In this document: piece by piece, positions 542 through 23,206 of the stretch
How the letters are laid out: each line of letters starts with the position of its first letter
Position numbering within the stretch: the first letter of the stretch is position 1
Origin: Rathayibacter sp. VKM Ac-2857
Lineage (GTDB): Bacteria; Actinomycetota; Actinomycetes; Actinomycetales; Microbacteriaceae
Length of the DNA: 64,000 bases
NCBI RefSeq assembly: GCF_013205025.1
Contig: NZ_JABMLE010000001.1
Span: 1,426,001-1,490,000 of the forward strand
Reading direction: 5' to 3'
Notes under the pieces: model-generated
What the model was told of the DNA's origin: nothing
Seen by the model: only the letters and a program-made list of their open reading frames with translations
Databases searched by the model: none
Position numbers and translations under genes: made by a program

Positions 542-1644
542 GCCGCGCTCCGGGTGTGGACGTCGGCGTAGACCCCGGCGATGTCGGCGCACATCCGCGC
601 GACGGAGCGCGGCGCGGCGGCGGCGGCCGGCTCCTCCGCCTGGCGCTCGAGCGCCCGCGCCACGGCCGCGGGGTCGTCCGCGTCGACGAGCGAGCGGGGC
701 GCGAGGATCTCGGGGTTGCCGCCGACCGCGGTGGCGACCACGCCCAGGCCGCGGGCGACGGCGTCGAGGAGGGTGTACGAGCAGTTCTCCCAGACCGAGA
801 GCTGGGCCACGACGTCCGCCTCGGCGAGCATCCGGGCGGAGTCGACGAAGCCGGGGAAGGCGACCGCGTCGCCGAGGCCGAGGGCGCTCGCCCGGGCGCG
901 GAGGGCGCCGTCGAGCGGTCCCTCCCCCGCGACGGTCAGCGTCGCGCCGGGCACCCGGCGGTGCAGGACGGCGAAGGCCTCGAGCAGGGCGTCGATCCGC
1001 TTCTCGGGCGAGAGGCGGGAGAGCGAGACGACGCGGAGCGCGCCGGCGGGGCGGGGGCGGCGAGCGGCGGCGGGGGCGTCCACAGCGGGGCCGTCCACGC
1101 CGTTGAGCACGACGTCGATGGGCAGCACCGCGTGCCACTTCTCCCGCATCGCGCGCCGGGTGGCCTGCGAGACGGCGATCGCCCCGTCGAACCGGTGCAG
1201 CCGGGCGCGGTGGGCGAGCGCCATCGCCCGGGCCTGCGCACCCGAGCGGTGGTAGACGGCGTCGGGGCCGGCGATGCCGTGCTCGGTGGTCAGCCGCCGG
1301 ACGCCGCGGGGCAGCGGGGTCGCGGCGCTCACGAGGTCGGCGTGGGCGAGGTGCGAGTGCACGATCGCGGGCCGGAGGGCTCCGGCCGTGGCGGCGAGCG
1401 TGCGGACGGAGGCGGCGAGGCCGGCGGCCGTGCCGAAGCGGCCGGTCGTCACCGCCGAGCCCTGGGCGCGCAGCCGGCGCGCCAGGGCGCCCTCGGGGCA
1501 GAGCACGACGACGCGGTGGCCGGGGATGCCCTGCCGCGCGACGTCGACGACGTGCCGGGCGACCCCGCCGTCGTCGGCGACGGGCACCAGCCAGAGCGCG
1601 ATCGGCGCGGCGCCGCCCGCAGCCGCACTCTCGCCCGCGCTCAC
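538..1644 (-). CDS. Glycosyltransferase family 4 (GT-B)
   Basis: 368 aa from a GTG that overlaps the NeuB-fusion stop (GTGA). The N-terminal Rossmann half carries DDGGVARHVVDVARQ, and HSHLAHADL resembles the HSH motif of GT4 acceptor domains. The C-terminal half has the GT4 donor-site signature: SLSRLSPEKRIDALLEA, then TVAGEGPL, then VVAQLSVWENCSYTLLDAVARGLGVVATAVGGNPEI. The E-x7-E position of many GT4 enzymes is altered here (WENCSYTLLDA). It probably adds one sugar to the lipid-linked repeat unit on the cytoplasmic face. Neighbours are the NeuB fusion upstream and the flippase downstream. Substrate cannot be read from sequence. Confidence 0.9.
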   Translation of the reverse strand: MSAGESAAAGGAAPIALWLVPVADDGGVARHVVDVARQGIPGHRVVVLCPEGALARRLRAQGSAVTTGRFGTAAGLAASVRTLAATAGALRPAIVHSHLAHADLVSAATPLPRGVRRLTTEHGIAGPDAVYHRSGAQARAMALAHRARLHRFDGAIAVSQATRRAMREKWHAVLPIDVVLNGVDGPAVDAPAAARRPRPAGALRVVSLSRLSPEKRIDALLEAFAVLHRRVPGATLTVAGEGPLDGALRARASALGLGDAVAFPGFVDSARMLAEADVVAQLSVWENCSYTLLDAVARGLGVVATAVGGNPEILAPRSLVDADDPAAVARALERQAEEPAAAAAPRSVARMCADIAGVYADVHTRSAA

Positions 1645-3887: not shown

Positions 3888-4579
3888 GCTCGCCCCCGCC
3901 GTCTCAGGTCGGCGAGCAGGTGCTCGGCGACGACGAGGTCGTGCTCGCCGTCGATGTCGCCGCCCTCGACCTCGTCCATCACGAACAGCCCGACCCGGCC
4001 GCCGATGCGGTTCCGCTCCCGCTCGTAGACCTCGGTCCGGGTGAGGTAGAGCGAGCCGGTCTCGCGGTAGAAGAACTCGGGCGGGGTCAGCTCCTGCCGG
4101 CGCGGCCGTGCGGTGACGTCGTAGTGCGCGAGCGCGCTCTCCTCGCCCCTCGAGCGCCAGAGGAACGGGGTCTGCGCGACGACGCCGACGAGCGAGTCGA
4201 CTCCGGTGCTCGCGAACTGCTCGACGGCGCGGTCGATCGTGCCGGGGAGGCGGATCGGCGAGGTCGCCTGGAGCAGCAGCACCGCGTCCGGCCGGCGCCC
4301 GAGAGCGACGCGGTGCGCGATGGCGTGCAGCACGACCGGCTCGGTCGCCGTCTCGTCGCGGGCGAGCTCGGCGGGGCGGAGGAACGGCACGTCGGCTCCG
4401 GCGTCCGCGGCGAGTGCGGCGAGCTCGGCGTCGTCGGTGGAGACCAGCACGTCGAGACCGGCGGCCAGCGCCTGCTCGATGCTCCAGACCACGAGCGGCG
4501 TGCCCGCGACGACGCGCGCGTTCTTGCGCGGCAGGCCCTTCGAGCCGCCGCGCACGGGGATGACGCACAGGATGCTCAT
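3884..4579 (-). CDS. neuA: CMP-N-acylneuraminate (nonulosonate) cytidylyltransferase
   Basis: 231 aa, usual length for the family. The N-terminus ILCVIPVRGGSKGLPRKN is the CTP-binding P-loop-like motif of NeuA/KdsB-type cytidylyltransferases. LLLQATSPIR and DGEHDLVVAEHLL are further family landmarks. It transfers CMP from CTP to the nonulosonic acid made by the adjacent NeuB fusion, giving the activated donor for the glycosyltransferases of this operon. The ATG at 4579 overlaps the preceding stop by 4 bp (ATGA) and its own stop overlaps the neuB start, so the genes are translationally coupled. Whether the sugar is Neu5Ac, legionaminic acid or another nonulosonate cannot be told. Confidence 0.93.
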   Translation of the reverse strand: MSILCVIPVRGGSKGLPRKNARVVAGTPLVVWSIEQALAAGLDVLVSTDDAELAALAADAGADVPFLRPAELARDETATEPVVLHAIAHRVALGRRPDAVLLLQATSPIRLPGTIDRAVEQFASTGVDSLVGVVAQTPFLWRSRGEESALAHYDVTARPRRQELTPPEFFYRETGSLYLTRTEVYERERNRIGGRVGLFVMDEVEGGDIDGEHDLVVAEHLLADLRRRGRA

Positions 4580-6608: not shown

Positions 6609-7525
6609 GTCGCCGCCGTCTCGGCCGCGGCGATCAGGCGCAGCTCGCCGCGGAAGACGGCGAGCGGTCGGACGCCGCGCCCCGCGAGCGCGCGGAGGGC
6701 GTTGGCGCCGAGGTTGACCACCGACGCCGCGCGCAGCGACGCCGCCAGCAGACCGGGGTGCGAGCGCCACTTTCGGGCGTAGCGCAGCCGCGCGGCGACC
6801 AGCCAGACCAGCCGCCGGGCGGGATCGGAGGAGCCGCCGCCGGTGTGCACCGCGACGACGTCGCCGGCGAACACCGACGGCACGCCGCGCGCCCGCAGCC
6901 GGCGCTGCAGGTCGACCTCCTCGCAGTTCATGTGGAACGACTCGTCGAAGCCGCCGATCGCGCGGAACTCGGCCGTCGGCAGCAGCATCGCCGCGCCGAC
7001 CACCCAGTCGACCGGCAGCACGGCGCCCTCGACGCAGCGGGTGTCGAGACCGACCGCCGCGCGCAGCTGCGGTCGCCAGCGCGCCAGCGGGGTGAGCCAC
7101 TCCACCACGTAGTGGCCGAGCCGCGGGAAGCGCCGGCCGACCCACTGCGCCCGCCCGGCGCCGTCCCGGAGCGCGGGCGCGACGACGGCGGGCAGCCACG
7201 GGGTCCCCGCGGCGACGAGGTCGCGGAGGAAGGTCTCGCCGATCTCGAGATCGCTGTTCAGCACCAGGAGCAGCGGGTGCGCCGCCTCGGCCGCGCCGCT
7301 GTTCACGGCGGCGCCGAAGCCGCCGTTGCGCGCGCGGCGGACGAGCGCGACGCCGTCACCGGCGGGGAACGGCACGGGCGAGGCGTCGTCGACGACGACG
7401 ATCTCGTGCTCCGGGGCGCCGACCTGGCCGCGCAGCTGCTCGAGCAGGGCGAGCGCGGGGCCCGGATCGCCGTAGTGCGGGACGACGACGCTGACGCCGA
7501 GCCCCGGCCGCTCCCGGCCGGTCAC
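6605..7525 (-). CDS. Glycosyltransferase family 2 (rhamnosyltransferase-like)
   Basis: 306 aa from a GTG in a GTGA overlap. The GT-A fold is visible: VSVVVPHYGDPGPALALLEQ at the N-terminus, EIVVVDDASP, the RNGGFGAAVNSGAAEA block, and LLVLNSDLEIGE, which supplies the D-x-D-type metal site (NSD). The acceptor-side GAAMLLPTAEFRAIGGFDESF and CEEVDLQRRLRARG follow (the ED/EE acid region). This is the WcaA/RfbN-like pattern of enzymes that add deoxy-hexoses to lipid-linked glycans. A basic C-terminal tail could associate with the membrane. Confidence 0.9.
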   Translation of the reverse strand: MTGRERPGLGVSVVVPHYGDPGPALALLEQLRGQVGAPEHEIVVVDDASPVPFPAGDGVALVRRARNGGFGAAVNSGAAEAAHPLLLVLNSDLEIGETFLRDLVAAGTPWLPAVVAPALRDGAGRAQWVGRRFPRLGHYVVEWLTPLARWRPQLRAAVGLDTRCVEGAVLPVDWVVGAAMLLPTAEFRAIGGFDESFHMNCEEVDLQRRLRARGVPSVFAGDVVAVHTGGGSSDPARRLVWLVAARLRYARKWRSHPGLLAASLRAASVVNLGANALRALAGRGVRPLAVFRGELRLIAAAETAAT

Positions 7526-8124
7526 GACGCGACCGCCCGGCTCTCGCGCGCGCGGCGCAGCGAGCGGCGGGTCGGCAGCACCGCCGGGCGGGGCGGATCC
7601 CAGCCGGCGGGCAGCGCGCCCAGGGCCGGCAGGATCGTGCGCAGGAGCGCGTCGATGTCGTCCACGGCGCTCGCCGCGACGGCGGCACCGCGCCCGTGCG
7701 GATCGGCGAAGTCGTCCTCCGCGCCGTACGGGGCGGTGTCGCGCGCGATCAGCTCGCGCAGGTCCGCTCCCGGGGCCGCCCGCGCCAGCCGCGCCGCGCG
7801 GCGGATGGTCGCGGTGCGCCGCGCCGCCGAGGCGAAGTGCTGGGCGACCCAGTCGCGCTGCCCCGACTCGAAGACCAGGACCAGATCGGCGTCCTGCAGC
7901 AGCCGGCCGTCGACCTGGCGGGCGCGGTGCGAGGCGACGGAGAGGCCGCGGGCGCGCAGCGCGTCGCCCAGGTCGGGGTCCAGAGCGCGGCCGACGGAGG
8001 CGTGCGTCCCGGCGCTCGAGACCCGCCAGTCGCCGGAGCCGCCCAGCAGCTCGGCCGCCAGGCGCTCGGCCGACGGCGAGCGGGCGACGTTCGCGTGGCA
8101 GAGCAGGAGCAGCTGCGCGCTCAT
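7522..8124 (-). CDS. Low-molecular-weight protein tyrosine phosphatase (Wzb-like)
   Basis: 200 aa. The N-terminal LLLLCHANVARSPSAERLA holds the CX5R(S/T) phosphate loop with nucleophile Cys9 and Arg15; VSSAGTHA follows as in the family. DDFADPHG supplies the general-acid Asp of the DP loop. Usual length is about 150 aa, so there is an extra C-terminal tail rich in Arg. It sits between the BY-kinase gene and the transferases, ATGA-overlapping the kinase gene. By analogy with Wzb/Wzc pairs it would dephosphorylate the Tyr-rich tail of that kinase and so control polymer length or export. Confidence 0.9.
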   Translation of the reverse strand: MSAQLLLLCHANVARSPSAERLAAELLGGSGDWRVSSAGTHASVGRALDPDLGDALRARGLSVASHRARQVDGRLLQDADLVLVFESGQRDWVAQHFASAARRTATIRRAARLARAAPGADLRELIARDTAPYGAEDDFADPHGRGAAVAASAVDDIDALLRTILPALGALPAGWDPPRPAVLPTRRSLRRARESRAVAS

Positions 8125-9713
8125 CGAGCCGGCCGCCGGAACGACGACGGGACCTCCGCCTTCGCCGCGGCACGAACGACGTGCTCGGTGGAGCGCGCGG
8201 GCTCGACGGCGCGCGCGGGCTCCGCGGCCCGCTCGGGCTCGGCAGCGCGCTCCGGTTCGATGGGCCGGACCGCCGGGAGGGAGCGGGCGGGCTCCTCCCC
8301 CGCGGCCCGGCGGCCGGACGACCGACCCCGCGAGCGGCCGGCGTCCGGCTCCGCGTAGTACGGGTTCTTGCGGTCGTAGTAGTAGGAGTACCCGGCGTCG
8401 CCGTCCTGCGCCGAGACCATGTTCAGCACGGTGCCGAGCACCCGGCCGCGCACCTGCTGCACGATCCGCCGGGCGGCGGTGACCTCGGGGCGGCGGGTGC
8501 GGTTGGAGGCGACGACGAAGACGATGCCGTCGACGACCGTCGCGACGATCGACGCGTCGGTGACCGGCAGGATCGGCGGCGCGTCGACGATCACGAAGTA
8601 GTCCTGCGCCAGCCGCTCGATCAGCGCGCGCATCGCCGAGGAGCCGAGCATCTCGGACGGATTCGGCGGGATGTGCCCCGCCGGCAGCGCGAACAGCCCC
8701 TCTGTGGCGGTCGGGCGGATCGCGTCCTCGACCGGGATCTGGTGGCTGAGCACCTCGCTGAGGCCGACGGCGCCGTCGATCCCGAGCAGCTTCGCGACGG
8801 TCGGGCGGCGCAGGTCGGCGTCGATCAGCAGGGTGCGCTGCCCGGAGTCGGCCATCACCCGGGCGAGGCCGGACGCGATCGTCGACTTGCCCTCGGCCTG
8901 GTTCGCGCTGGTGATCACGACGCTGCGGGTCTCGTCGTCGACGCTCGAGAAGCGCAGACCGGTGCGGAGTGCGCGGAAGGCCTCGGCGGTGATCCCGTCG
9001 ACCGCCCGGGCGTCGCCGCGGCGGCCGGCCCTGGCCCGGCCCGTCTTCGGGATGCGGCCGAGGACGCCGACGCCGAAGAGCTGCGTGAGGTCGTCGACGG
9101 TGCGCACCCGGATGTCGAGGGCGCGGCGGAGGATCGCGAGGACGAAGCCGAGCACGAGACCGCCCGCGGCGCCGAGCAGCAGGTTGCGCAGCCAGTTCGG
9201 GCTCGTGGGCGCCGAGGCCGGCTCGGCGTTCTCCAGCGGCACCACCGTGATCTGGGGGGTGCGGTCGGCGGTCGACTGCGTCTCGATGTCCGCGATCACG
9301 TCGGCGAGCGCCGCCAGGGCGCCGTTGGCGAGGGCCGCCGCGTTCTCGGGCGTCGCCGCCGAGGCGGTCACCTCGATCAGGGTGCTGCCCGGGGCGACGG
9401 CCGCGGTCAGCCGGCCGTTCAGCGGCTCGCCGCCGGGGTTCGCCTCGGGATCGGACTCGATCCGCTCGTAGACCGCGCTGCTGGAGATGAGCGGCAGGTA
9501 CGCGTTGGCCCGGGTGACCGCGGTCTGCGCTCCGCTGATCGCGTCGGCCGAGCTGCCGTCGGTCGCCGCGATGACGAAGCCGGCCGAGCTGGAGTCGTAG
9601 ACCTTCGGCGACACGGCGGAGAAGGCCGCCATCGCGCTCACGCCGACGAGAACGGCGATGACGAGGATCTTCCAGTTCCGCCGGAGGAAGGCGATGAAAT
9701 CGACGACAGTCAC
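8121..9713 (-). CDS. Polysaccharide co-polymerase / bacterial tyrosine kinase (Wzz-Wzc type)
   Basis: 530 aa, GTG start at 9713. The N-terminal TM is at about 14-33, then an extracytoplasmic Wzz domain, and a second TM at about 176-196. The cytoplasmic ATPase follows: Walker A ANQAEGKST at about 270-278, Walker A' LLIDADLRRP at about 295-304, Walker B VIVDAPP at about 373-380. A Tyr cluster (YSYYYDRKNPYY, about 442-453) is the likely autophosphorylation site. The tail carries short repeats of EPERAA/EPARAV type. It sets chain length of the capsule/EPS and is the first gene of the operon that runs down to the flippase; its phosphatase is the next gene. Kinase and Wzz are in one chain, as in proteobacterial Wzc and many actinobacteria. 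Confidence 0.95.
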   Translation of the reverse strand: MTVVDFIAFLRRNWKILVIAVLVGVSAMAAFSAVSPKVYDSSSAGFVIAATDGSSADAISGAQTAVTRANAYLPLISSSAVYERIESDPEANPGGEPLNGRLTAAVAPGSTLIEVTASAATPENAAALANGALAALADVIADIETQSTADRTPQITVVPLENAEPASAPTSPNWLRNLLLGAAGGLVLGFVLAILRRALDIRVRTVDDLTQLFGVGVLGRIPKTGRARAGRRGDARAVDGITAEAFRALRTGLRFSSVDDETRSVVITSANQAEGKSTIASGLARVMADSGQRTLLIDADLRRPTVAKLLGIDGAVGLSEVLSHQIPVEDAIRPTATEGLFALPAGHIPPNPSEMLGSSAMRALIERLAQDYFVIVDAPPILPVTDASIVATVVDGIVFVVASNRTRRPEVTAARRIVQQVRGRVLGTVLNMVSAQDGDAGYSYYYDRKNPYYAEPDAGRSRGRSSGRRAAGEEPARSLPAVRPIEPERAAEPERAAEPARAVEPARSTEHVVRAAAKAEVPSSFRRPAR

Positions 9714-9863: not shown

Positions 9864-11123
9864 ATGACCCACCACGTGGACAGCGCGGACCTCTCCGGGG
9901 GCGGAATCGGCCTCCGGGTCTCGCGGCGCCCGGATCTCGGAGCGGTGTTCCCGATAGCACACTCGGCGCGGATCATCGATGCGGCGCTGATGGGTCTGAT
10001 CATCTATCGACTCTCCGTCCCTTTCCTTCCCGGATCCTTTCCGGCCGCCCAGTCCGCCGTCATCGGACTTCTTCTGATCAGCCTCTTCCGCCGTCCTCCC
10101 CGCTCTCTCCGCGCCGTCGGCTGGTATCCCTTCCTCTGCCTCGGCCTCCTCGGCTTCGCCGTGGTGGTCTCGGCGGTGAACGGACTCGATCTCGAGCGGC
10201 GAGCGGGCAACATCGGCCTGCTGATGCTGATGGCCGCCTTCCTCGCCAGCGGCCGGATCGACGTCGCCTCCGCGATCAAGGGCATCGGCGTGGCACTGAC
10301 CCTGAACGCCGCGCTCTTCGCCGCCGGCCTCGCCCCGGACGCCTACCAGGGCGCCCTCACCGGCTACCTGCAGGACAAGAACGTCGCCGGGCTCTACTAC
10401 GGCATTGCCGCCCTGCTCGTCGCGGCGACCCTCCAGCGCCGGTGGCTCCGGATCGCGGTGCTCGTCGCCGGCGGGCTCGCGGTCGTCGCCACCGACTCGC
10501 GCACCTCGATGGCCGCCTACGCCTGCGGAATCCTCTGGCTCGTGGTGACCCCGCGGCTGGGGCTCGCCTTCCGGGCGCTCACCGGCGCCGGCATCGCCGC
10601 GCTCTTCGTCTGGGCCGAGGCGAACCTGTCCACCGCGGGCGTCTACGGCGTCGAGCGGGCCGGCTCCGACGCGCTCCGCGAGAGGATCCTGCAGGCCTCC
10701 TTCGACCGCGTCGCGCTCGCGCCGTGGAGCGGCGGCGGGCTCGGGACGGCGACGGCCGACGTCGACGGCATCGCCTGGTTCTTCCACAACTCCTACCTCG
10801 CGCTGCTCGCCGAGGGCGGCGTCGTGCTGCTCGTCGGGGTCCTCGCGATCTACGCGGTGGCGGGGTTCGGGCTGCTGCCGCGGCGACCCGAGACGTTCGC
10901 GCGCCACGCGGTCGGCGCGGCGACGGTGGTGGTGCTGCTCTGCGCGACGCAGCTCGGCGAGGTGTTCTTCGCGCCGATGTCGTTCGTCGTCGTCGGCGCC
11001 GGGCTGGCGCTGCTGGCGGAGCGGCGGCCGGAGGAGGACGCGGACGCCCTCCCCGGTGCCGAGTTCCCCGGGACAGCGCTCCCCGGGACCGAGATCCCGC
11101 TGACCGAGCGCCCCCGCAGCTAG
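9864..11123 (+). CDS. O-antigen ligase / Wzy-like polysaccharide polymerase
   Basis: 419 aa, multi-pass membrane protein. The ATG at 9864 is preceded by GAGGA seven bases upstream, which is better than a GTG/ATG pair at 9840. About 10 hydrophobic stretches are visible, for example IIDAALMGLIIYRL, FLCLGLLGFAVVVSAV and IAVLVAGGLAVVATDSR. The large periplasmic-type loop ending GGGLGTATADVDGIAWFFHNSYLALLAEGG contains the HNSYL motif of the Wzy_C/O-antigen ligase family. It would polymerise lipid-linked repeat units outside the membrane. It is transcribed away from the kinase operon, and its TAG stop shares four bases with the stop of the convergent GT4 gene. Confidence 0.88.
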   Translation: MTHHVDSADLSGGGIGLRVSRRPDLGAVFPIAHSARIIDAALMGLIIYRLSVPFLPGSFPAAQSAVIGLLLISLFRRPPRSLRAVGWYPFLCLGLLGFAVVVSAVNGLDLERRAGNIGLLMLMAAFLASGRIDVASAIKGIGVALTLNAALFAAGLAPDAYQGALTGYLQDKNVAGLYYGIAALLVAATLQRRWLRIAVLVAGGLAVVATDSRTSMAAYACGILWLVVTPRLGLAFRALTGAGIAALFVWAEANLSTAGVYGVERAGSDALRERILQASFDRVALAPWSGGGLGTATADVDGIAWFFHNSYLALLAEGGVVLLVGVLAIYAVAGFGLLPRRPETFARHAVGAATVVVLLCATQLGEVFFAPMSFVVVGAGLALLAERRPEEDADALPGAEFPGTALPGTEIPLTERPRS

Positions 11124-12244: not shown

Positions 12245-13326
12245 TCCGACTCCTTCTCCTCGAGAGATCGCAGAAGCAGTTCTATTCGATGAGCGCCTGC
12301 GGCGGGCGAGAAGTGCTCGCTCCATCTCCGCCACTTCTCCGCAGTCTCGTCCTCTCCCTCTCCTCTCGCCGAAGTAGTGAGAGCGAGAGCGATAGCAGCG
12401 GCCAATGCCTCGGCGTCTCCCGCCGGAGAGATGGCGCTGATCGACGGACCGACGACGCCGGGAAGCGCACCGGCGTCACTCACCAGCACCGGTATCCGAG
12501 CCGACATCGCCTCCGCCGCCACCAGGCCGAAGGACTCCGGCTCGATCGAGGGCACCACGACGAGATCGACCCGGGAGAAGAAGTCCGCCGGAGTCAGCCA
12601 GCCCGGCCTCTCCACCAGCGCGGCGACGGGGCCGAGCGCCGCCTCGACCTCGCGGCGCGCCCGCTCCGAGACGAAGCGCGGCTCACCGGCGACGAGCAGG
12701 CGGTACGCCCCGGGCTCGGCCGCGTCGAGCCGCGCGAGCGCCGCGGCGAGCACCCGGACGCCCTTGGCGACGGACGGACGACCGAGGAAGCCGAGCACGA
12801 CCGGGCCGCCACCGCGCTCGTGCCGCTCCGCCGGCACGACGGGCGCGCACCAGTTCGGCAGCACGGTGGCGCCGCGGACGAGATCCGCCAGGTACTGCGA
12901 CGGCACCAGCGTCGCGAGCGCCCCCGCCCGCGCGACCGGCACGAGCGCGCGCTGCAGGCCGGACGGTCGCTGGTGCAGGTGCACGATCCGGCGCGGACGC
13001 CCGGCCGTCGCCGCCGCCGGTACCAGTCCGTTGCACCAGAGCACGCCCCGGCGCTCGGTCGCGTCCCAGCGCCGCAGCGCCCGCATCCACGCGCGCCGGC
13101 CCGAGGCCTCGAGCTCGACGACCGGGTGGCCGGCCGCGCGGGCCGCGGCGACGAGGCGGCCCGGCTCCGACGGCCCGACGACGGTCACCGCGACGCCCAG
13201 CTCCTCGAGGGCCGCGGCGATGCTCAGCAGCATCACCTCGCCGCCGCCGATGTCGCCGTTGTTGGTGGCGAGGACCACTCCCTCGCCCCACAGCCCCCCG
13301 CCGACGTGCTCGCGAGCCTCCGTCAT
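12241..13326 (-). CDS. Glycosyltransferase family 4
   Basis: 361 aa, ATG at 13326 with GGGAG six bases upstream. The N-terminus shows GDIGGGEVMLLSIAAALEEL, the glycine-rich acceptor-domain loop. The donor half has VVLGFLGRPSVAKGVRVL, RLLVAGEPRF and VVVPSIEPESFGLVAAEAMSARIPVLVSDAGA, where ESFGLVAAEAM is the E-x7-E motif of retaining GT4 enzymes. It heads a two-gene unit with the next GT4 and is divergent from the nucleotidyltransferase gene at 13426. Its first third is less G/C-biased than neighbours near 12260-12420. Confidence 0.92.
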   Translation of the reverse strand: MTEAREHVGGGLWGEGVVLATNNGDIGGGEVMLLSIAAALEELGVAVTVVGPSEPGRLVAAARAAGHPVVELEASGRRAWMRALRRWDATERRGVLWCNGLVPAAATAGRPRRIVHLHQRPSGLQRALVPVARAGALATLVPSQYLADLVRGATVLPNWCAPVVPAERHERGGGPVVLGFLGRPSVAKGVRVLAAALARLDAAEPGAYRLLVAGEPRFVSERARREVEAALGPVAALVERPGWLTPADFFSRVDLVVVPSIEPESFGLVAAEAMSARIPVLVSDAGALPGVVGPSISAISPAGDAEALAAAIALALTTSARGEGEDETAEKWRRWSEHFSPAAGAHRIELLLRSLEEKESE

Positions 13327-13425: not shown

Positions 13426-14364
13426 ATGGAGCTCGTGACCGTTCTCTTCGCCGAGGAGGCGGTCCCGCTGCTGACGGCGTTCGTGCACCGGCGGGCCGAG
13501 GCGGCCGGGCTGCGCGCCCTCGTGCTCAAGGGCCCGATCGCCGACGCGGACGGGCTGCGACCGCCCCGCGCCTCGGGCGACGTGGACGTGCTCGTGCCGC
13601 CGGAGGACGCCCCACGGCTGGTCGCACTGCTCGCCGGCGACGGCTGGACCGAGCGTCCGTGGCCCGACGGGCCGACGCTCGCCCAGAAGCACTCCCGCAG
13701 CTACCGGCACGCGGACTGGCCGGTCGACATCGACGTGCACTGGCGCTGGCCGGGCTTCCTCGCGGCCCCGGCGGACGCGTTCGAGAGCCTCTGGAGCCGC
13801 CGGCGCACCGTCGAGATCGCGGGCCGCCCGGTGGCGGCGGTCGGTGTCGCCGACATGGCCCTGGTCCTGGCGCTGCACTCGCTCCGCGACGCCTGGCAGA
13901 TCACCGATCCGCGGCGGACCGGGCCCTCCGACTACGAGCTGCTCGTCGAGGCGGTCGCCGCGCGCCCCGCCCTGCACGCCCCGCTGCGCGACGCGGCGGA
14001 GTCGCTCGGCGCCGTGCCGACCGCCGCGCCGTTCCTGCACGCGCTCGGCATCCCGGCTCGGGCGGGCGAGGCCCCGGCGGATCAGCTGCGCGCCTGGCGG
14101 CTCGGGGCGCTCTCGCGGCACGCGGCGGCCGGCTGGGTCGAGGCCCTGCGCGCCGCCCCGGCCGCGCGCAGGCCCGCACTGCTGCGCCGCGCCCTCTTCC
14201 CCTCCGGCTCCGCCCTGCGCGCCGCCGACCCGAGCATCGGACCGCGACGACGCGACGCCGTCGCGGGCTGGTGGCGGCGCTTCCGCCGCGGCGTCCGCAC
14301 CGCCCCCGAGGCCTGGCGGCTCCTCCGGCAGGCCGACCACGGCGCGGATCGGACCCCCGCATGA
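13426..14364 (+). CDS. Nucleotidyltransferase-fold protein (NTP_transf_5 family)
   Basis: 312 aa. Landmarks: LRALVLKGPIADADGLRPPR, then SGDVDVLVPPEDAPRLVALL (the D-x-D pair of the nucleotidyltransferase fold), and DWPVDIDVHWRW. The KG...DxD...DxHW order is characteristic of the NTP_transf_5 family (Pfam PF14907) found with HprK-related kinases and PqqD-like proteins. The C-terminal half is helical and Arg/Ala-rich. Its stop overlaps the start of the HprK-related gene (ATGA), so the two are made together. The substrate of this family is not known. It is in the middle of the polysaccharide locus. Confidence 0.8.
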   Translation: MELVTVLFAEEAVPLLTAFVHRRAEAAGLRALVLKGPIADADGLRPPRASGDVDVLVPPEDAPRLVALLAGDGWTERPWPDGPTLAQKHSRSYRHADWPVDIDVHWRWPGFLAAPADAFESLWSRRRTVEIAGRPVAAVGVADMALVLALHSLRDAWQITDPRRTGPSDYELLVEAVAARPALHAPLRDAAESLGAVPTAAPFLHALGIPARAGEAPADQLRAWRLGALSRHAAAGWVEALRAAPAARRPALLRRALFPSGSALRAADPSIGPRRRDAVAGWWRRFRRGVRTAPEAWRLLRQADHGADRTPA

Positions 14365-15458
14365 CCCGGGACCTCACGATCGCGCCCTTCGGTCTCGGCG
14401 TGCGCCTGAGCTTCGACGACACCGTCCCCGACGCCGTGATCGCGCGGTTCCAGGAGTCGTGGAGTGACGTGACCGACGTCGCGGAACGCCCGGGCTCGGC
14501 GCACCGCGTCTCGCTCACCGAGCCAGAGGGCGTCGCGGGCGTGATCGCGCAGCCGACGGAGGAGGCGCTCGCCGAGCACCTCGGCGCGGCGCTCACCGTC
14601 GCCGCCGTCGACGCCTGCCGTGGGCGGCTGCTCAGCATCCACGCGTCCGCCCTCGCCCTCCCCGACGGGCGGGTCGTCGCCTTCACCGGCCGGCCCGGCG
14701 CGGGCAAGTCGACGCTGATCAGCCTGGCCGGCCGCCGCTTCGGCTATCTGACCGACGAGACGGTCGCCGTCCGCCGCGACGGGACCGTCCTGCCGTTCCG
14801 GAAGCCGATCGCCCTGCACGGCGGCACCTCCGGCTGGAAGCGGCACCGCTCCCCCGCCGCATCCGGGATGCTCCCGCTTCCGGCCGCGCCGCTGCGGCTC
14901 GCCGGGCTCTGGCTGCTCGCCCGCGACGCCGACGGCCCCGATGTGCCCGTGCTCGAGGAGGTCGGCTTCGACGAGGCGCTGCGGGCGCTCCTGCCCGAGC
15001 TGAGCTGGTTCGCCGAGCTGCCGTCGGCGCTGCACCACCTCGCCGCGCTGGTCGACGCGATCGGCGGCGTGCGGCGGCTCCGCTACCGCGAGGCGGAGTC
15101 GGTGCTTCCGCTGCTGGACGGCGTCCGCGAGCCGGCGGCCGTCGCAGAGACGGAGCCCGAGAGCGTCGCCTCGGCCGCGAGCGCTCCCGGCGCCTACCGT
15201 CGCGACGACGGCACGGAGTGGATCGAGCGCGACGGCGTCGTCTCCTGCCTGCGCGGGAGCCTCATCGAGTCGCTGACCGGGATCGCTCCGGTGCTCTGGC
15301 GCACCCTGGCGCGGCCGGCGAGCTTCGGGGAGCTGACGGCGGCCGTCGTCGCCGAGCACGGCGCGCCCCCCGGCGGCGACGCGGGCGAGGTCGTCGGGGC
15401 GGTGCTCGCCGAGCTGGTCGAGCGCGGACTCGTCGCTCGGGTCCCGGCCCGGGGATGA
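14361..15458 (+). CDS. HprK-related kinase fused to a PqqD-like domain
   Basis: 365 aa. Residues about 90-135 read LLSIHASALALPDGRVVAFT, GRPGAGKST (Walker A, about 110-118) and FGYLTDETVAVRRDG, which is the HPr kinase fold with HASA ahead of the P-loop and an acidic TDE after it. Residues about 275-365 resemble a PqqD domain (AYRRDDGTEWIERDGVVSCL, LIESLTGIAPVLWRTLARPA, ELVERGLVARV). No HPr protein is near. Family knowledge: such 'HprK-related kinase A' proteins occur with PqqD and PF14907 proteins in EPS loci and have no assigned substrate. Here the ATGA coupling to the nucleotidyltransferase supports a shared step. Confidence 0.8.
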   Translation: MTRDLTIAPFGLGVRLSFDDTVPDAVIARFQESWSDVTDVAERPGSAHRVSLTEPEGVAGVIAQPTEEALAEHLGAALTVAAVDACRGRLLSIHASALALPDGRVVAFTGRPGAGKSTLISLAGRRFGYLTDETVAVRRDGTVLPFRKPIALHGGTSGWKRHRSPAASGMLPLPAAPLRLAGLWLLARDADGPDVPVLEEVGFDEALRALLPELSWFAELPSALHHLAALVDAIGGVRRLRYREAESVLPLLDGVREPAAVAETEPESVASAASAPGAYRRDDGTEWIERDGVVSCLRGSLIESLTGIAPVLWRTLARPASFGELTAAVVAEHGAPPGGDAGEVVGAVLAELVERGLVARVPARG

Positions 15459-15462
15459 GACC

Positions 15463-15498
15463 GGGCGGCGCCCCCTCCCCCCGGAGGACGCGCCGCCC
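15463..15498 (+). terminator. GC-rich hairpin after the HprK-related gene
   Basis: GGGCGGCGC (15463-15471) pairs with GCGCCGCCC (15490-15498) around an 18-nt loop, starting five bases after the stop codon. There is no T-run. It is likely an actinobacterial I-shaped terminator for the plus-strand genes. A 14-bp near-tandem repeat of ACCACCCGATCAG follows at about 15520-15547. Confidence 0.55.
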
Positions 15499-15586
15499 GC
15501 ATCGTGCCGCCCGACCGGCACCACCCGATCAGAACCACCCGATCAGGACTGGACGGGCTCCGAGCTAATGCCCGGAACCCGAGGAC

Positions 15587-17023
15587 TCAGGGCTGCGGGG
15601 TGTTCTCGCCGACCGAGCCTCGAGCGAGGAACAGGTCGAGCAGATTCACCACTCCGAGCGCCCGGATGTAGAGCGCGGCGACGTCGAACCGCCGGGCCGG
15701 CAGGCTGTCCCACGCGGCCGGGCCGGGCGGGTTCGTCGAGCGGTTCTGCGCGTTCACGTCGATGTTGATCAGCGTCGTGAGCGCGGTGAACAGCGGGGTC
15801 AGGAGGGCCGTCTGGAGCAGGGCGACCACCGGGGTCAGCGTCACGTTCAGCAGCGTGTTGAGGAGGCCGTTGATCGTCGCGACGAGAGCACCCGTCGCGG
15901 TCCGGAGCGGCGTGCCGCCGACCGTGATGTTGTCCTGCAGCCGGTCGCTGAGCGTGCTGATCAGCGACGTCGTGAAGGTGTTGATCGCGGCGGCCGGAAG
16001 CGCGAGGTTGTTGTCGACGAACAGGGTGGAGTTCGGCGGCAGGCTGTTGAAGTAGGCCGAGTAGGTGCCGAACGGGGTGTTGCCGGGCTGGCCCGGCGCC
16101 GGGCCCAGCAGCGACAGCAGGTCGATCGTGATCGTGGCCGGCGTGACGCCGAGCTGCGCCTGGATCGGCTGGGCTCCGCCGGGGATGTTGCCGGCGAAGA
16201 TCGCGGTGGCGTTCACTCCGACCCCGGGGAGCGCGTCGACGGTGTTCAGCACGCCGGTGACGAGGGACACGATCTGGCCGAGCAGCGGGGAGGCCAGCAC
16301 CAGGTTCAGCCGCGTGACCTGGTAGTCGCGCTGGATGTTGAGCGTGCTCGGCACGCAGGCCGACTGGATCGCGGCGCGGCCGGTGACGGCGCCGATCTGC
16401 AGCCGGAGGTCGGTGACCTGACCGACGAGGCCGGAGGCGAGCGTGCCGCCGATGCCGGTGAGGATCCTCCGCAGGTCGATGGTGGCGAAGTCGGGGAACG
16501 TCGCCGACGCCGGGTTGAGCTCGAGCTGCCCCTGGTTGTCGACCGCTCCCGCCGCTCCGCGGCTGTTGCCGTCGATGTTCGCGAAGGCGTACTGATCGAG
16601 GACGCCGACGTCGCCGGGCGCGGCGACCGAGAGCAGCGTCGAGAGGGCTCCGGTCAGGCCGGTCGCGCTGATCTGCAGCGTGTTCAGCACCGTGACGGTC
16701 GTCGTCCCGAACCGCGTCGAGGTGGGCGTGCTCTGGTCGGGCACGAGCGCGCGCTCGCCCTGCAGCGCGACGACGCCGTCGAGGTTCACCCCGCCGAGGA
16801 ATCCGCTCAGCAGGATGCCGCGCGCCTGCGCCTGGAACAGCGTCCCGACGGGGTAGCAGCTGACCGAGGCCGCCGAGGCGGACTGCGCGACCATGATCGC
16901 CGGCACCGACCAGGCGGCACCCGCGACGACCGTGCGCCGGGTGACTCCGAGGCCGTTGCTCCCGGGCTTCCTGGTCTTCTTCTCGCTGATCCCGGAGGAT
17001 TCGAGCGGATGAGACTCCGTCAT
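15587..17023 (-). CDS. Tat-exported choice-of-anchor-type surface protein
   Basis: 478 aa. The N-terminus has a Tat-like signal, GVTRRTVVAGAAWSVPAIMV followed by AQSASA, with the twin Arg near residues 29-30 and a likely cut after ASA. The mature part is Gly/Leu/Asn/Thr-rich and low in charge, with repeated short Leu-Leu-Thr/Val blocks (TLQISATGLTGALSTLLSVA, LLNTLLNVTLTPVVALLQTA), like the choice-of-anchor G surface proteins of actinobacteria. No LPxTG motif or C-terminal TM is visible. AAGGG lies nine bases before the ATG. It is transcribed against the PqqD/HprK genes that surround it. Its function is unknown; it could be the substrate or a scaffold for the surface glycan (speculation). Confidence 0.7.
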   Translation of the reverse strand: MTESHPLESSGISEKKTRKPGSNGLGVTRRTVVAGAAWSVPAIMVAQSASAASVSCYPVGTLFQAQARGILLSGFLGGVNLDGVVALQGERALVPDQSTPTSTRFGTTTVTVLNTLQISATGLTGALSTLLSVAAPGDVGVLDQYAFANIDGNSRGAAGAVDNQGQLELNPASATFPDFATIDLRRILTGIGGTLASGLVGQVTDLRLQIGAVTGRAAIQSACVPSTLNIQRDYQVTRLNLVLASPLLGQIVSLVTGVLNTVDALPGVGVNATAIFAGNIPGGAQPIQAQLGVTPATITIDLLSLLGPAPGQPGNTPFGTYSAYFNSLPPNSTLFVDNNLALPAAAINTFTTSLISTLSDRLQDNITVGGTPLRTATGALVATINGLLNTLLNVTLTPVVALLQTALLTPLFTALTTLINIDVNAQNRSTNPPGPAAWDSLPARRFDVAALYIRALGVVNLLDLFLARGSVGENTPQP

Positions 17024-17160
17024 GTGCGGCCCTTTCCCGGGATGCTCGACAGATCACCCTCGTGGTGGCGTCGGTGGCGAATGTAGCGAAGGAATTCCGG
17101 GGAGAGAGGCTCTGGCGGATTTCTACTCCTCCTGGCGCTGATGCGCGGTGACGGAGGATC

Positions 17161-17198
17161 GGAGAGAATCGTCTCTCCGAGTCGCCTTCCGATATCGG
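17161..17198. promoter_or_regulatory. Two inverted repeats upstream of the stand-alone PqqD gene
   Basis: GGAGAGAATCGTCTCTCC (17161-17178, 7-bp arms) and the perfect palindrome CCGATATCGG (17189-17198) lie 23-60 bases before the ATG at 17221. The 197-bp gap also serves the divergent surface-protein gene, has GGAATTCC at 17091-17098 like the promoter region at 9822-9829, and is noticeably more A/T-rich than the genes. These are candidate operators; no regulator is adjacent. Confidence 0.4.
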
Positions 17199-17220
17199 CT
17201 GCGGGAAAGAGGGGAAGCGG

Positions 17221-17613
17221 ATGCTGCGAGCCGATCCCCGCGCGCGCCGCTGGCGCCGGCATCCCGACACCGCCTTCGTCGACGACGGCGAGCGCATCCT
17301 GGTGCTCCCCCTCGGCAGATCGCCGCTCGGCAGTCCCGCGGCGATGCGGGCGAGCGTCGCGGAGACCTGGCGGGTGCTGAGCGGGGACCCGCAGGACTTC
17401 GCCGCCCTCGCCGGCCGGCTCGCCGAGCTGCACACCGCCGCCGCTGGCGAGATCGAGGACGACCTCGCCGCGATGCTGACCGAGATGGAGCAGCTGCTGC
17501 TGGTCGAGGGCGTGGTGGGCGAGGGCGTGGCGGGCGAGGGCGTGGCGGGCGAGGGCGACGGCCCGGCGACCGACGGCCCGGAGGACGACGGAGCGGTCGA
17601 GGCCGGGCGGTGA
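17221..17613 (+). CDS. Stand-alone PqqD-like (RRE-fold) protein
   Basis: 130 aa, ATG preceded by AGAGGGGA. The 85-residue core DTAFVDDGERILVLPL, AMRASVAETWRVLSGDP and EIEDDLAAMLTEMEQLLLVE has the length and pattern of PqqD-like peptide-chaperone/RRE proteins (three beta strands, then helices with a hydrophobic E-x3-L-x2-M-x4-LL end). The C-terminus is a low-complexity Gly/Glu/Val tail encoded by three copies of a 15-bp tandem repeat. The stop overlaps the GT2 start (GTGA). In other genomes this family accompanies HprK-related kinases in EPS loci, as here 2 kb upstream. No precursor peptide was recognised. Confidence 0.65.
   Translation: MLRADPRARRWRRHPDTAFVDDGERILVLPLGRSPLGSPAAMRASVAETWRVLSGDPQDFAALAGRLAELHTAAAGEIEDDLAAMLTEMEQLLLVEGVVGEGVAGEGVAGEGDGPATDGPEDDGAVEAGR
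17506..17550 (+). repeat. 15-bp tandem repeat, three copies, inside the PqqD-like gene
   Basis: GAGGGCGTGGYGGGC occurs at 17506-17520, 17521-17535 and 17536-17550, with a partial fourth copy. It encodes EGVVG/EGVAG repeats in frame, so copy-number change would only lengthen or shorten the tail. Confidence 0.9.
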
Positions 17614-18524
17614 GGGCGAGCGTGATCGTCCCCAGCTACGCGGGCGCCGAGCGGCTGCCCCGGCTGCTCACCGCCCTCGCCGCGCAGTCGCACGCCGAGC
17701 TCGAGGTCGTCGTCGTCCTCGACGGGGTCGTCGACGGCAGCGAGCGCGTGCTCGACGGCTTCCCCGTCCGCCGGGTCGTGCTCCCGGAGAACCGCGGGCG
17801 CTCGGCCGCCCTCAACGCCGGCTTCGCGGCGGCGACCGGCGCGGTGCTGATCCGCTGCGACGACGACCTCGAGCCGGCGCCGGGCTGGGCCGCCGCGCAC
17901 GTCGCCGCGCACGCGGGCGGCCCGGTCGGCGTCGTCGGCCTCTGCCCGAACGCCTACCCCGACTCGGCCTACGCCCGCGCCTACGGCCGCGACGCCGACG
18001 CCCGCTTCCGCGCTCACGCGGTCGCCGCTCCCCCGGCATCCACCTGGCGGCTCTGGGGCGGCAACGTCTCAGTGACCCGCGCCGTCTTCGACCGGGTCGG
18101 CGGCTACGGCACCGAGTACCGCGAGTACGGCTGGGAGGACGTCGACTGGGGCTACCGCCTGCACCGGCTCGGCCTGCCCGTGCGGCTCGAGCCGGGCGCC
18201 GAGGCCCTGCATCACGGTGCCTCGACGAGCACCGCGATCCGCAGCCGGCGCGCGTTCCTCTCCGGCGCGGCCCGGCGCACCTTCGAGCGCCTGCACCCGG
18301 AGGAGGTGCGCGCCGCCGCCGCACCCGCGGGCGTCTGGGACGCGGCGGTCCGCGCGCTCGCCCGCGTCGAGACGGAGCGGCGGCTCGCCCGCCTCGCCGC
18401 CGGCGTCGACGCCGTCCTGCCCGCCGTTCCGCGGGCGCTCGGCCGGAAGCTGGTCGCGCTCGCGGTCGAATCGGCGGCGATCGCCGGCTACCAGCGCGCG
18501 GCGTCGCGCGCCGATCCGCGCTGA
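17610..18524 (+). CDS. Glycosyltransferase family 2
   Basis: 304 aa from a GTG coupled to the PqqD stop. RASVIVPSYAGAERLPRLL and VVVVLDGVVDGS open the GT-A fold. ENRGRSAALNAGFAAATGAV and IRCDDDLEP give the D-x-D metal site, and WGGNVSVTRAVFDRVGGYG with YGWEDVDWGYRLHRLG is the acceptor region with the ED motif. Active site complete. Likely adds a sugar to the lipid-linked unit; the pairing with the PqqD-like protein is conserved in comparable EPS loci (inference). Confidence 0.9.
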   Translation: MRASVIVPSYAGAERLPRLLTALAAQSHAELEVVVVLDGVVDGSERVLDGFPVRRVVLPENRGRSAALNAGFAAATGAVLIRCDDDLEPAPGWAAAHVAAHAGGPVGVVGLCPNAYPDSAYARAYGRDADARFRAHAVAAPPASTWRLWGGNVSVTRAVFDRVGGYGTEYREYGWEDVDWGYRLHRLGLPVRLEPGAEALHHGASTSTAIRSRRAFLSGAARRTFERLHPEEVRAAAAPAGVWDAAVRALARVETERRLARLAAGVDAVLPAVPRALGRKLVALAVESAAIAGYQRAASRADPR

Positions 18525-21098: not shown

Positions 21099-21546
21099 CA
21101 TGCTGATCGAGTAGCCCGCGCAGCGGCCGTATCGAGATCCACCACCGTCAGAACGCGAGTCTGCAGACCCGCCCCGCTGACGACGCCGGGTCTCGATACG
21201 CCCCTCCGCATGAGCGCGTGCGGCAGCGTCTCTCGACGAGCGCGGCCCCTCATGCTGATCGAGTAGCCCGCGCAGCGGGCGTATCGAGATCCACCACCGC
21301 CAGAACGCGAGTCTGCAGACCAGCCCTGCTGACGACGCCGGGTCTCGATACGCCCCTCCGGGGCTACTCGACCAGCATGAGCGCGTGCGGCAGCGTCTCT
21401 CGACGAGCGCGGCCCCTCATGCTGATCGAGTAGCCCGCGCAGCGGGCGTATCGAGATCCACCACCGTCAGAACGCGAGTCTGCAGACCCGCCCCGCTGAC
21501 GACGCCGGGTCTCGATACGCCCCTCCGGGGCTACTCGACCAGCATG
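21099..21546. repeat. Palindromic repeat cluster 1 (three tandem modules)
   Basis: Each module of about 130 bp has a left arm CATGCTGATCGAGTAGCCC + GCGGGCGTATCGAGATCCACC, a central palindrome GTCTGCAGAC, and a right arm GGTCTCGATACGCCCC + GGGGCTACTCGACCAGCATG. Each arm is itself a hairpin (TAGCCCGC/GCGGGCGTA). Modules start at 21099, 21251 and 21418. The second and third are 167 bp apart and share an intervening 40-bp spacer; the first has a truncated right arm. The cluster fills the 687-bp gap between the convergent GT4 and prpD genes and no gene was found in it. Confidence 0.92.
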
Positions 21547-21649
21547 CGGGGCCGCGGACCCGCCCGCCGAGGCGTCCTCGGACGGTCGAGACGTCCAGGA
21601 GCAGTGGGACGCCTCGACGGTTCGAGGACGCCTCGGCGACGCACCTCGC
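21542..21649. repeat. Embedded 105-bp element, copy A
   Basis: A block beginning GCATGCGGGGCCGCGGACCC recurs almost identically at 31000-31103. It has 11-bp terminal-type inverted repeats CCGAGGCGTCC and GGACGCCTCGG and is bounded by arms of the palindromic repeat on both sides. No ORF with support. Confidence 0.85.
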
Positions 21650-21682
21650 CCGCGCAGCGGGCGTATCGAGATCCGCCGCCCG

Positions 21683-23206
21683 CTAGAACAGCCCGCGCGG
21701 CGACTCCACCGAGGCGAGGACGCCCGGGGCCGCGACGATCGTCAGGCGCGCGACCTCGTCCGCCGTCAGCTCCGGCAGGCGCTGTGCGAGGTCGAGGAAG
21801 CGCTCGACCTCCGCCTCCTCGAGCACGTCGGCGGCGAGGGTGCGGAACTTCGCGACGTACTGCTCGCGGGTGAACGGGTGCGCGCCGAGCGGGTGCGCGT
21901 CCGCCACCGCGATCTCGTCCACGATCGTGCTGCCGTCGGTGAGCAGGATCTCGACGCGCGCGCCGAACGCCTTCTCCGCCGGGTCGACGGAGTGGTAGCG
22001 GCGGGTCCACTCCGCGTCCTCCTCCGTCGTCGTGCGCTGCCAGAGCGCGACGGTGTCGGGGCGGGCGGCGCGCTCGGGGGCGTAGCTGCGCTCGTGGTGC
22101 CAGGCGCCGTCCTGCAGCGCGACCGTGAAGATGTAGGGCACGGAGTGGTCGAGCGTCTCGCGCGACGCCGTCGGGTCGTACTTCTGCGGGTCGTTCGCGC
22201 CGGAGCCGATGACGTAGTGGGTGTGGTGCGAGGTGTGGATGACGATCCGCTCGACGCGCTCGGGATCGGCGGCCTCGGGGTGCGCGTGGTGCAGGCGGCG
22301 GGCCAGGTCGATCAGCGCCTGCGCCTGGTACTCGGCCGAGTGCTCCTTCGTGTACGTGTCGAGGATCGCGCGCTTGGCCTCGCCGGCGTCCGGCAGCGGC
22401 ACGTCGTAGGACGCGTCGGGGCCGTCGAGCAGCCAGGCGATCACGCCGTCCTCGCCCTCGTAGATCGGCGACGGGCTGGTCTCGCCGCGCATCGCCCGGT
22501 CGACGGCCTCGATCGCCATCTTGCCGGCGAAGGCCGGGGCGTACGCCTTCCAGCTCGAGATCTCGCCCTTGCGCGACTGCCGGGTCGCGGTGGTGGTGTG
22601 CAGCGCCTGGGCGATCGCCTGCTCGATCACGGCGACGTCGAGGCCGAGCATCGTGCCGAGCCCGGCCGCGGCCGAGGGGCCGAGGTGCGCGACGTGGTCG
22701 ATCTTGTGCCGGTGCAGGCTGATCGCGCGGACGAGGTCGACCTGGACCTCGTAGCCGGTGACGATGCCGCGGAGCAGCCGGGCTCCGTCGATGCCCGCGT
22801 GCTGGGCGACGGCGACCAGCGGCGGGATGTTGTCGCCGGGGTGCGAGTACTCGGCCGCGAGGAAGGTGTCGTGGTAGTCGAGCTCGCGGACCGCGACGCC
22901 GTTCGCCCAGGCGGCCCACTCGGGCGAGACACGGCGGCCCGGGTCGACGCCGAACACGGTGGCGCCCTCGCCGCCGATGGAGGCGGGGTGGGCGAGCGCC
23001 TGCGAGCGCGCGGCGACGACGGGGCGGCGCACGAGCGACGCGGCGGCGACGGCGGCGTTGTCGATGACGCGGTTGACGACCATCTCCGCGACTTCGGCGT
23101 CGACCTCGACGGGATCGGCGGCGACCTCGGCCAGGGCGTGGGCGAGCTGCCCGTGGCGCGGGAGGTCCTCGTCGCTGCGGTGGACGCGGACGTGGTGTTC
23201 GTGCAC
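21683..23206 (-). CDS. prpD: MmgE/PrpD family protein, 2-methylcitrate dehydratase
   Basis: 507 aa, GTG at 23206 with AAGGAG five bases upstream. [20 protein letters not shown] is the PrpD landmark (usually LDFNDTWLAAEWGHPSDN), and [32 protein letters not shown] and [20 protein letters not shown] also fit. In the methylcitrate cycle it dehydrates 2-methylcitrate from propionate breakdown. No prpB or prpC is in the window, so a different substrate in the MmgE/PrpD superfamily is possible. The stop codon lies directly beside an arm of repeat cluster 1. Confidence 0.88.

Follow-up and report, generated by a model that had tools for sequence, protein, structure and literature searches.

The polysaccharide locus of Rathayibacter sp. 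VKM Ac-2857 raises the question of what a kinase of the HprK/PEPCK fold acts upon when it is encoded together with PqqD-like domains and a PF14907 nucleotidyltransferase. The locus lies in a stretch of 64,000 nucleotides (contig NZ_JABMLE010000001.1, positions 1,426,001 to 1,490,000), here called the window. A first-pass annotation made from the letters of the window had described these genes as an uncharacterised set within a polysaccharide locus and had considered a peptide among the possible substrates. The description holds, with PF14907 scoring 64.5 bits against a cut-off of 31.2, and a peptide-like substrate is likely. Comparison across actinobacterial genomes indicates that the substrates are likely exported proteins of the twin-arginine translocation (Tat) type that carry a distinctive N-terminal signal, not a small precursor peptide, and that one of them is encoded between the kinase and the second PqqD. 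The genes concerned are as follows.

13426..14364, + strand: PF14907 (NTP_transf_5) nucleotidyltransferase, with the motif KG...R...DVDVLV...DIDVH.
14361..15458, + strand: HprK/PEPCK-fold kinase with a fused C-terminal PqqD domain, its start overlapping the PF14907 gene by 4 bp.
15219..15440, + strand: PqqD-like domain of the kinase, residues 287-360 (E 6.2e-13 to a profile of stand-alone PqqDs, computed on a small database).
15587..17023, - strand: choice-of-anchor G protein, Tat-type, the candidate substrate (NF033766, 100.6 against 45), lying between the + strand kinase and free PqqD genes.
16859..17023, - strand: N-terminal signal of the choice-of-anchor G protein, R29R30 ... W38xxP41 ... 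S55, with the Ser at W+17.
17221..17613, + strand: second, free PqqD-like protein (E 6e-5 to the same profile, likewise on a small database).
17610..18524, + strand: GT2 glycosyltransferase (PF00535, 87.7 bits), its start overlapping the PqqD stop.

The kinase and the signal occur in the same genomes. We ran a signal model (A3), made from 17 signals of proteins near kinases, on whole genomes and found a match at E<=1.3e-8 in 32 of 33 kinase-positive genomes, the number of matches per genome at E<=1 ranging from 1 to 46; in a comparison set of 25 kinase-negative genomes from that family, taken from the negatives listed in the family and class draws, the best match was 0.0076. At E<=1e-7, a threshold picked after the data were seen, the signal is present in 12/12 kinase-positive versus 1/138 kinase-negative genomes of the family draw (Fisher 7.5e-17) and in 21/24 versus 2/369 genomes of the class draw (Fisher 1.5e-29). 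At E<=1e-3 the corresponding counts are 12/12 versus 3/138 and 22/24 versus 17/369. The cells of these tables are genomes and not independent events, and the genus-level figure for the family draw is the safer one (8/8 kinase-positive genera versus 1/77, p 1.9e-10). Since A3 was built from kinase-near proteins, we also give the counts for kinase-positive genomes that did not feed it, in which the signal was found in 6/6 (family) and 15/18 (class). The genome of the window (G000) was counted in both draws, and the locus pairs L024/L038, L026/L065 and L035/L066, which look like the same loci, were each counted once. We sorted training from non-training genomes by hand, and likewise counted manually the matches near kinases and the genera.

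The association is also visible within genera and along the chromosome. Genus g85 divides into five kinase-positive genomes with the signal and seven listed negatives without it, and genus g15 into one of each. TatC was found in all 58 genomes (33 kinase-positive and 25 kinase-negative), so the absence of the signal is not due to a lack of Tat; the idea that such genomes generally have a second, dedicated TatC was considered and rejected, three copies being present only in two g12 genomes. The family draw yielded 136 signal matches, of which 19, including 7 that had gone into A3, have a kinase no farther than 10 kb away; most signal proteins are therefore encoded elsewhere in the genome. Among the non-training matches 12 of 129 lie this close, where about 0.8 would be expected (binomial 3e-11). 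A looser kinase search in 12 signal-positive, kinase-negative genomes recovered divergent kinases in three (G336, G345 and G225), each separated from a weak signal by no more than about 650 bp. The coupling of kinase and signal is thus well supported, and the association is strong, with exceptions on both sides.

The signal itself has a fixed geometry. The consensus R-R-x7-W-x-x-P-x8-P-x4-S is common to the Tat-type signals of proteins encoded beside a third kind of Rathayibacter kinase (described below) and of kinase-near proteins in other genera, and it is found on many unrelated secreted proteins, the candidate substrates being 110-533 amino acids long. Aligned on the Trp, 54 substrates (the model's 17 signals included; 59 distinct substrates less four with E>1e-6 and one without WxxP) have Ser at W+17 in 52 cases and Pro at W+12 in 51, with Ser there in the other three, and beyond W+17 they show no residue of comparable conservation. 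A scan of 1.86 Mb of DNA for the bare pattern RRx7WxxP followed by an uncharged stretch, which used no hidden Markov model (HMM), gave 85 distinct signals, 80 of them with Ser at W+17, against 8 of 22 pattern hits in which the stretch after WxxP is charged; as the DNA had been chosen for kinases or signals, the scan tests spacing and not frequency. A control set of 15 supposedly ordinary Tat signals, many of them plainly not Tat signals, was discarded. The substrates seldom carry familiar C-terminal anchors, a crude scan of 55 finding one LPXTG motif and one transmembrane-like stretch, and neither an LPXTG nor a plain hydrophobic tail is visible at the C-terminus of the choice-of-anchor G protein in the window. 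Ten substrates searched against NCBIfam gave nothing above cut-off, the best being TIGR02811 'formate_TAT' at 16.4 bits against 48.45.

All 15 Rathayibacter genomes searched encode the kinase, and the kinase tree separates three kinds. A core copy stands directly before Wzc in 15/15 genomes, with a phosphoglycosyltransferase (PGT) gene called before the kinase in 13/15, a low molecular weight protein phosphatase (LMW-PTP) behind it in 13/15 and Ugd in 15/15. The window-type copy is present in three Rathayibacter genomes. The third kind occupies five loci in four genomes. In all five a gene for a Tat-signal protein of about 180 amino acids comes directly before the kinase in the same orientation, and the gene calls within 7.5 kb include no Wzc, PGT, Ugd, epimerase or PF14907. 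Two of the five are broken copies in genome G004.

L050:8057-9820 and L051:8185-9491: broken third-type kinase copies of G004 beside their Tat-signal proteins.

Across the genomes surveyed, the kinase and the signal class co-occur and often adjoin, and some loci add signal peptidase, Tat and exopolysaccharide genes. Genes for Wzc-like proteins accompany the kinase more often than any others, in 29 of the 41 loci surveyed. Locus L031 of Nocardioides terrae combines kinase, PqqD, signal protein and PF14907. In L056, L057 and L058, which represent three genera, a same-strand signal peptidase I gene either overlaps the kinase or comes immediately after it, and such a gene lies farther off in L025 (79 bp, convergent), L064 (0.8 kb), L029 (2.8 kb) and L075 (4.4 kb). 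TatC is encoded in L057 and L060, which belong to one genus, and Pfam identified a TatA/B-type gene in L060 and L064, with a TatA match also in L057. PF14907 was found in 10/12 kinase-positive genomes of the family draw (one of the ten below cut-off) versus 11/138 kinase-negative genomes, and by hand count it lies within about 10 kb of the kinase in 9/12 kinase-positive genomes.

L057:4289-9143, L060:15538-17413 and L064:10438-11615: Tat genes and signal peptidase near kinase and signal proteins.

Membership in the 'HPr-rel-A' system, to which the first-pass annotation had likened the set, did not survive the family tests. The window kinase scores 31.4 and 31.5 bits in two scans against a cut-off of 200 for TIGR04352 (HPr-rel-A kinase), and the product of 17221-17613 scores 14.4 bits against 35 for TIGR04353 (HPr-rel-A PqqD chaperone), so this is not the annotated HPr-rel-A system. 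Structural matches place the kinase in the PEPCK fold, which is shared across the HprK/PEPCK superfamily; the best 50 structural matches listed include PEPCK entries only and none for HprK, and no match to the Pfam HPr kinase family was listed at E<=10. The kinase keeps the His/Lys/Asp positions (H94, K116 and D132), and the fourth, acidic position is Glu133, with Glu at this second acidic position in 60/61 covered kinases. A PDB sequence search was set aside as a functional guide, returning mostly P-loop matches to ABC transporters and one PEPCK at 0.007, and a plasmid search with the kinase gave no match.

Against Pfam PqqD (PF05402, cut-off 23.4) the kinase C-terminus scores 18.6 bits and the free protein 19.6 bits, compared with 62.3 and 25.5 bits for two PqqDs in one Nocardioides locus; both window domains do match the profile of stand-alone PqqDs, drawn from other genera, as listed above. 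The fused domain plus a second PqqD had been thought an unusual split, a view that the survey does not bear out, PqqD usually being fused to the kinase or encoded directly behind it. Residues K35, G36, R48, D52, D54, D103 and H105 of PF14907 are invariant in 7/7 aligned sequences, with D52, D54 and D103 at the Asp motif positions typical of nucleotidyltransferases.

On balance, we consider it probable that the kinase, the PqqD domains and, where present, PF14907 form a dedicated modifying machinery for Tat-exported surface proteins bearing the R-R-x7-W-x-x-P-x8-P-x4-S signal. The chemistry would be phosphorylation, perhaps phosphoglycosylation. On the simplest reading, Tat substrates would undergo a lasso-like tailoring while still in the cytoplasm, in which PqqD would read the W-P signal and the serine would be the acceptor. 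PqqD domains bind peptides, both in PqqD itself and as recognition elements of ribosomally synthesized and post-translationally modified peptides (RiPPs), and by extension the PqqD domain would bind the unusual signal peptide in the cytoplasm. The HprK-like kinase may then phosphorylate the W+17 serine, at the junction of signal and mature protein, a step that we put forward tentatively. Where a genome or locus encodes it, PF14907 might add a sugar to that phosphate, much as is proposed for PsmN on the phosphoserine of lasso peptides, although we regard this addition as rather doubtful. Tat substrates are exported after folding; in this scheme Tat would carry the folded, marked protein across the membrane and signal peptidase I, of which some genera would have dedicated copies, would cleave near the serine. 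It is conceivable, as a speculative and improbable last step, that the marked terminus attaches the protein to the exopolysaccharide that the locus itself produces; such attachment would account for signal proteins that have none of the usual C-terminal anchors.

In its fullest form the proposal describes a new actinobacterial class of sorting and modification, in which a PqqD-guided kinase and PF14907 make a phospho-linked glycan on the W+17 serine and the exported proteins become joined N-terminally to exopolysaccharide, and we give this whole scheme a small chance of being right. If true, it would handle unrelated surface proteins that may number in the dozens in a single cell and would amount to a sugar counterpart of the lipobox, adding an N-terminal, Tat-linked signal to the known bacterial sorting signals. 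It would also suggest how secreted proteins without usual anchors could stay at the surface, and would mean that lasso-type tailoring enzymes act on whole exported proteins as well. The orphan kinase/PqqD/PF14907 sets of these actinobacterial loci gain a class of candidate substrates in which the acceptor serine is predicted.

Other explanations account for parts of these data. The kinase and PqqD might act on the polysaccharide machinery itself (the Wzc tail, PGT or a lipid-linked sugar), with the signal proteins being matrix proteins that merely travel with it. The frequency of Wzc-like genes beside the kinase fits this explanation, as do the 15 Rathayibacter core copies that precede Wzc with no signal protein nearby. 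We nevertheless consider it unlikely, because the five third-type cassettes pair a Tat protein with a kinase and have no polysaccharide genes called nearby, because some loci include signal peptidase and Tat genes, because PqqD domains bind peptides, and because bystanders would not be expected to share a signal motif with such strict spacing. The conserved W and P inside the signal would suit a chaperone or proofreader of Tat signals, for which the redox enzyme maturation proteins are a model: PqqD and kinase would gate export at the expense of ATP and leave no lasting modification. The peptide-binding PqqD fold and the Tat genes of some loci are in keeping with such a role, which leaves unexplained both the enrichment of PF14907 in kinase-positive genomes and the serine fixed where the signal ends; we judge it somewhat less likely still than an action on polysaccharide machinery. 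The occurrence of the kinase/PF14907/PqqD trio in lasso clusters suggests that a precursor peptide could be hidden here too, as part of a lasso or another RiPP pathway. We consider this very improbable, as 18 window genes scanned gave no match to a cyclase (PF00733), a protease (PF13471) or a lasso precursor, and the gaps of three orthologous loci share no small open reading frame (ORF).

Several observations weigh against a dedicated machinery for modifying the signal proteins. The 15 Rathayibacter core kinases adjoin Wzc, and the surrounding 6-7.5 kb encode no signal protein; polysaccharide may thus be what some copies of the kinase serve. PF14907 is absent from 2/12 kinase-positive genomes and from many loci, and the sugar-adding step therefore cannot be universal. 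The serine may be kept only for cleavage by signal peptidase. Good signals with no recognisable kinase occur in G098, G366 and G493, and weak ones (3e-7 to 5e-5) in the g102 genomes G376, G456, G289 and G521; the nine genomes of the looser search other than the three with a divergent kinase show short P-loop matches only, and a further eight kinase-negative genomes, additional to the 12 that the search covered, carry weak signals (G212, G213, G265, G272, G337, G361, G374 and G414). Conversely, G447 and G228 are kinase-positive without a good signal match, and G190 has a weak match only, beside its kinase. Finally, the lasso kinases, in the passages of the literature cited below, target a C-terminal serine, and their His-Lys-Asp-Asp set has Asp where the kinases considered here have Glu.

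The remainder of the window locus is that of a polysaccharide cluster, with NeuB, cytidylyltransferase, glycosyltransferase and GalE-like epimerase genes as further neighbours.

1641-4579, - strand: NeuB/CBS/SAF/xylose-isomerase-like fusion and cytidylyltransferase, which probably form a branch of the polysaccharide locus for a nonulosonic (sialic-like) acid.
7522..8124, - strand: LMW-PTP (PF01451).
8121..9713, - strand: Wzc-like chain-length protein with a P-loop kinase domain (ParA/AAA_31-type families).
9864..11123, + strand: Wzy_C (O-antigen ligase/polymerase family) membrane protein (PF04932, 34.6 against 31.7).

A tRNA-Thr call at 12864-12937, probably spurious, shares sequence with a glycosyltransferase gene. 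At 21218-21873 (+ strand) two nearly identical ORF starts about 170 bp apart form a short direct repeat. The gene order of the window locus is identical in two other Rathayibacter genomes, G007 and G004. The free PqqD has one counterpart in L037, at 74% identity over 100, and another in L038, at 62% over 63, the latter called short. The PF14907 gene at the window-type locus of G007 was called as two pieces (L037:8270-9206). The genome of the window, G000, has two more PF14907 genes (L047:7532-8851 and L048:9640-10578) in a separate large polysaccharide region, around which no kinase was called within the stretches taken. Elsewhere, the signal was matched 41 times at E<=1e-3 in G086 (L056, L157-L159, contig C28), with many of the matches on the contig that carries the kinase, and in G098 (L174) a kinase-like sequence, matched weakly at 4.6e-6, lies about 0.5 kb away from the PF14907 gene. 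In L180, L181 and L182 (f25, from three large-genome actinobacteria) a short kinase lies behind a PqqD gene and near a signal match, with a glycosyltransferase-like gene behind the short kinase in L180 and L182.

Term searches of the open-licence literature, which cannot look for the motif itself, found no paper on the pairing of kinase and signal, and the set resembles several known systems in part. It shares the PEPCK fold and the His/Lys/Asp positions with HprK and PEPCK, from which the window kinase differs in its fused PqqD and in the Glu at the second acidic position. The HPr-rel-A sets (TIGR04352 and TIGR04353), which the first-pass annotation places in polysaccharide loci, likewise combine an HprK-like kinase with a PqqD-like protein; the difference lies in the low scores of the window proteins against both families.

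A close parallel in chemistry is lasso peptide phosphoglycosylation (PadeK/ThcoK/PsmK and PsmN), which like the window set involves an HprK-like kinase and a protein described as a nucleotidyltransferase, PsmN. Passages of PMC8498205 and PMC9266682 describe an HprK-like kinase of lasso clusters that phosphorylates a serine of the precursor peptide; with the nucleotidyltransferase PsmN one or two hexoses join the phosphate, and whether PsmN or a host enzyme transfers the hexose is left open there. The candidate substrates described here are, by contrast, Tat-type proteins of 110-533 amino acids. Of three PF14907 loci from genomes scored as kinase-negative (G098, G015 and G066), only that of G066, another genome of the family, gave readable neighbours, and it is a lasso cluster.

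L184:5752-10031: lasso cluster of G066, with Asn_synthase (cyclase), Transglut_core3 (protease), HPr-kinase-like, PF14907 and PqqD genes and a 51-amino-acid ORF ending in Ser.

Another close parallel is the PEP-CTERM/exosortase (EpsH) system, in which, according to PMC1569441, a sorting signal and machinery of exopolysaccharide loci were found by phylogenetic profile; the terms 'HPr', 'PqqD' and 'nucleotidyltransferase' are absent from the main text of that paper. Secreted proteins of that system end in a PEP motif and a transmembrane segment, and a transmembrane-like stretch of this kind was seen in one of the 55 substrates given the crude scan. In both cases unrelated secreted proteins share a signal that co-occurs with machinery encoded in exopolysaccharide loci, with the difference that the signal described here is N-terminal and Tat-type and that its machinery is a kinase with PqqD.

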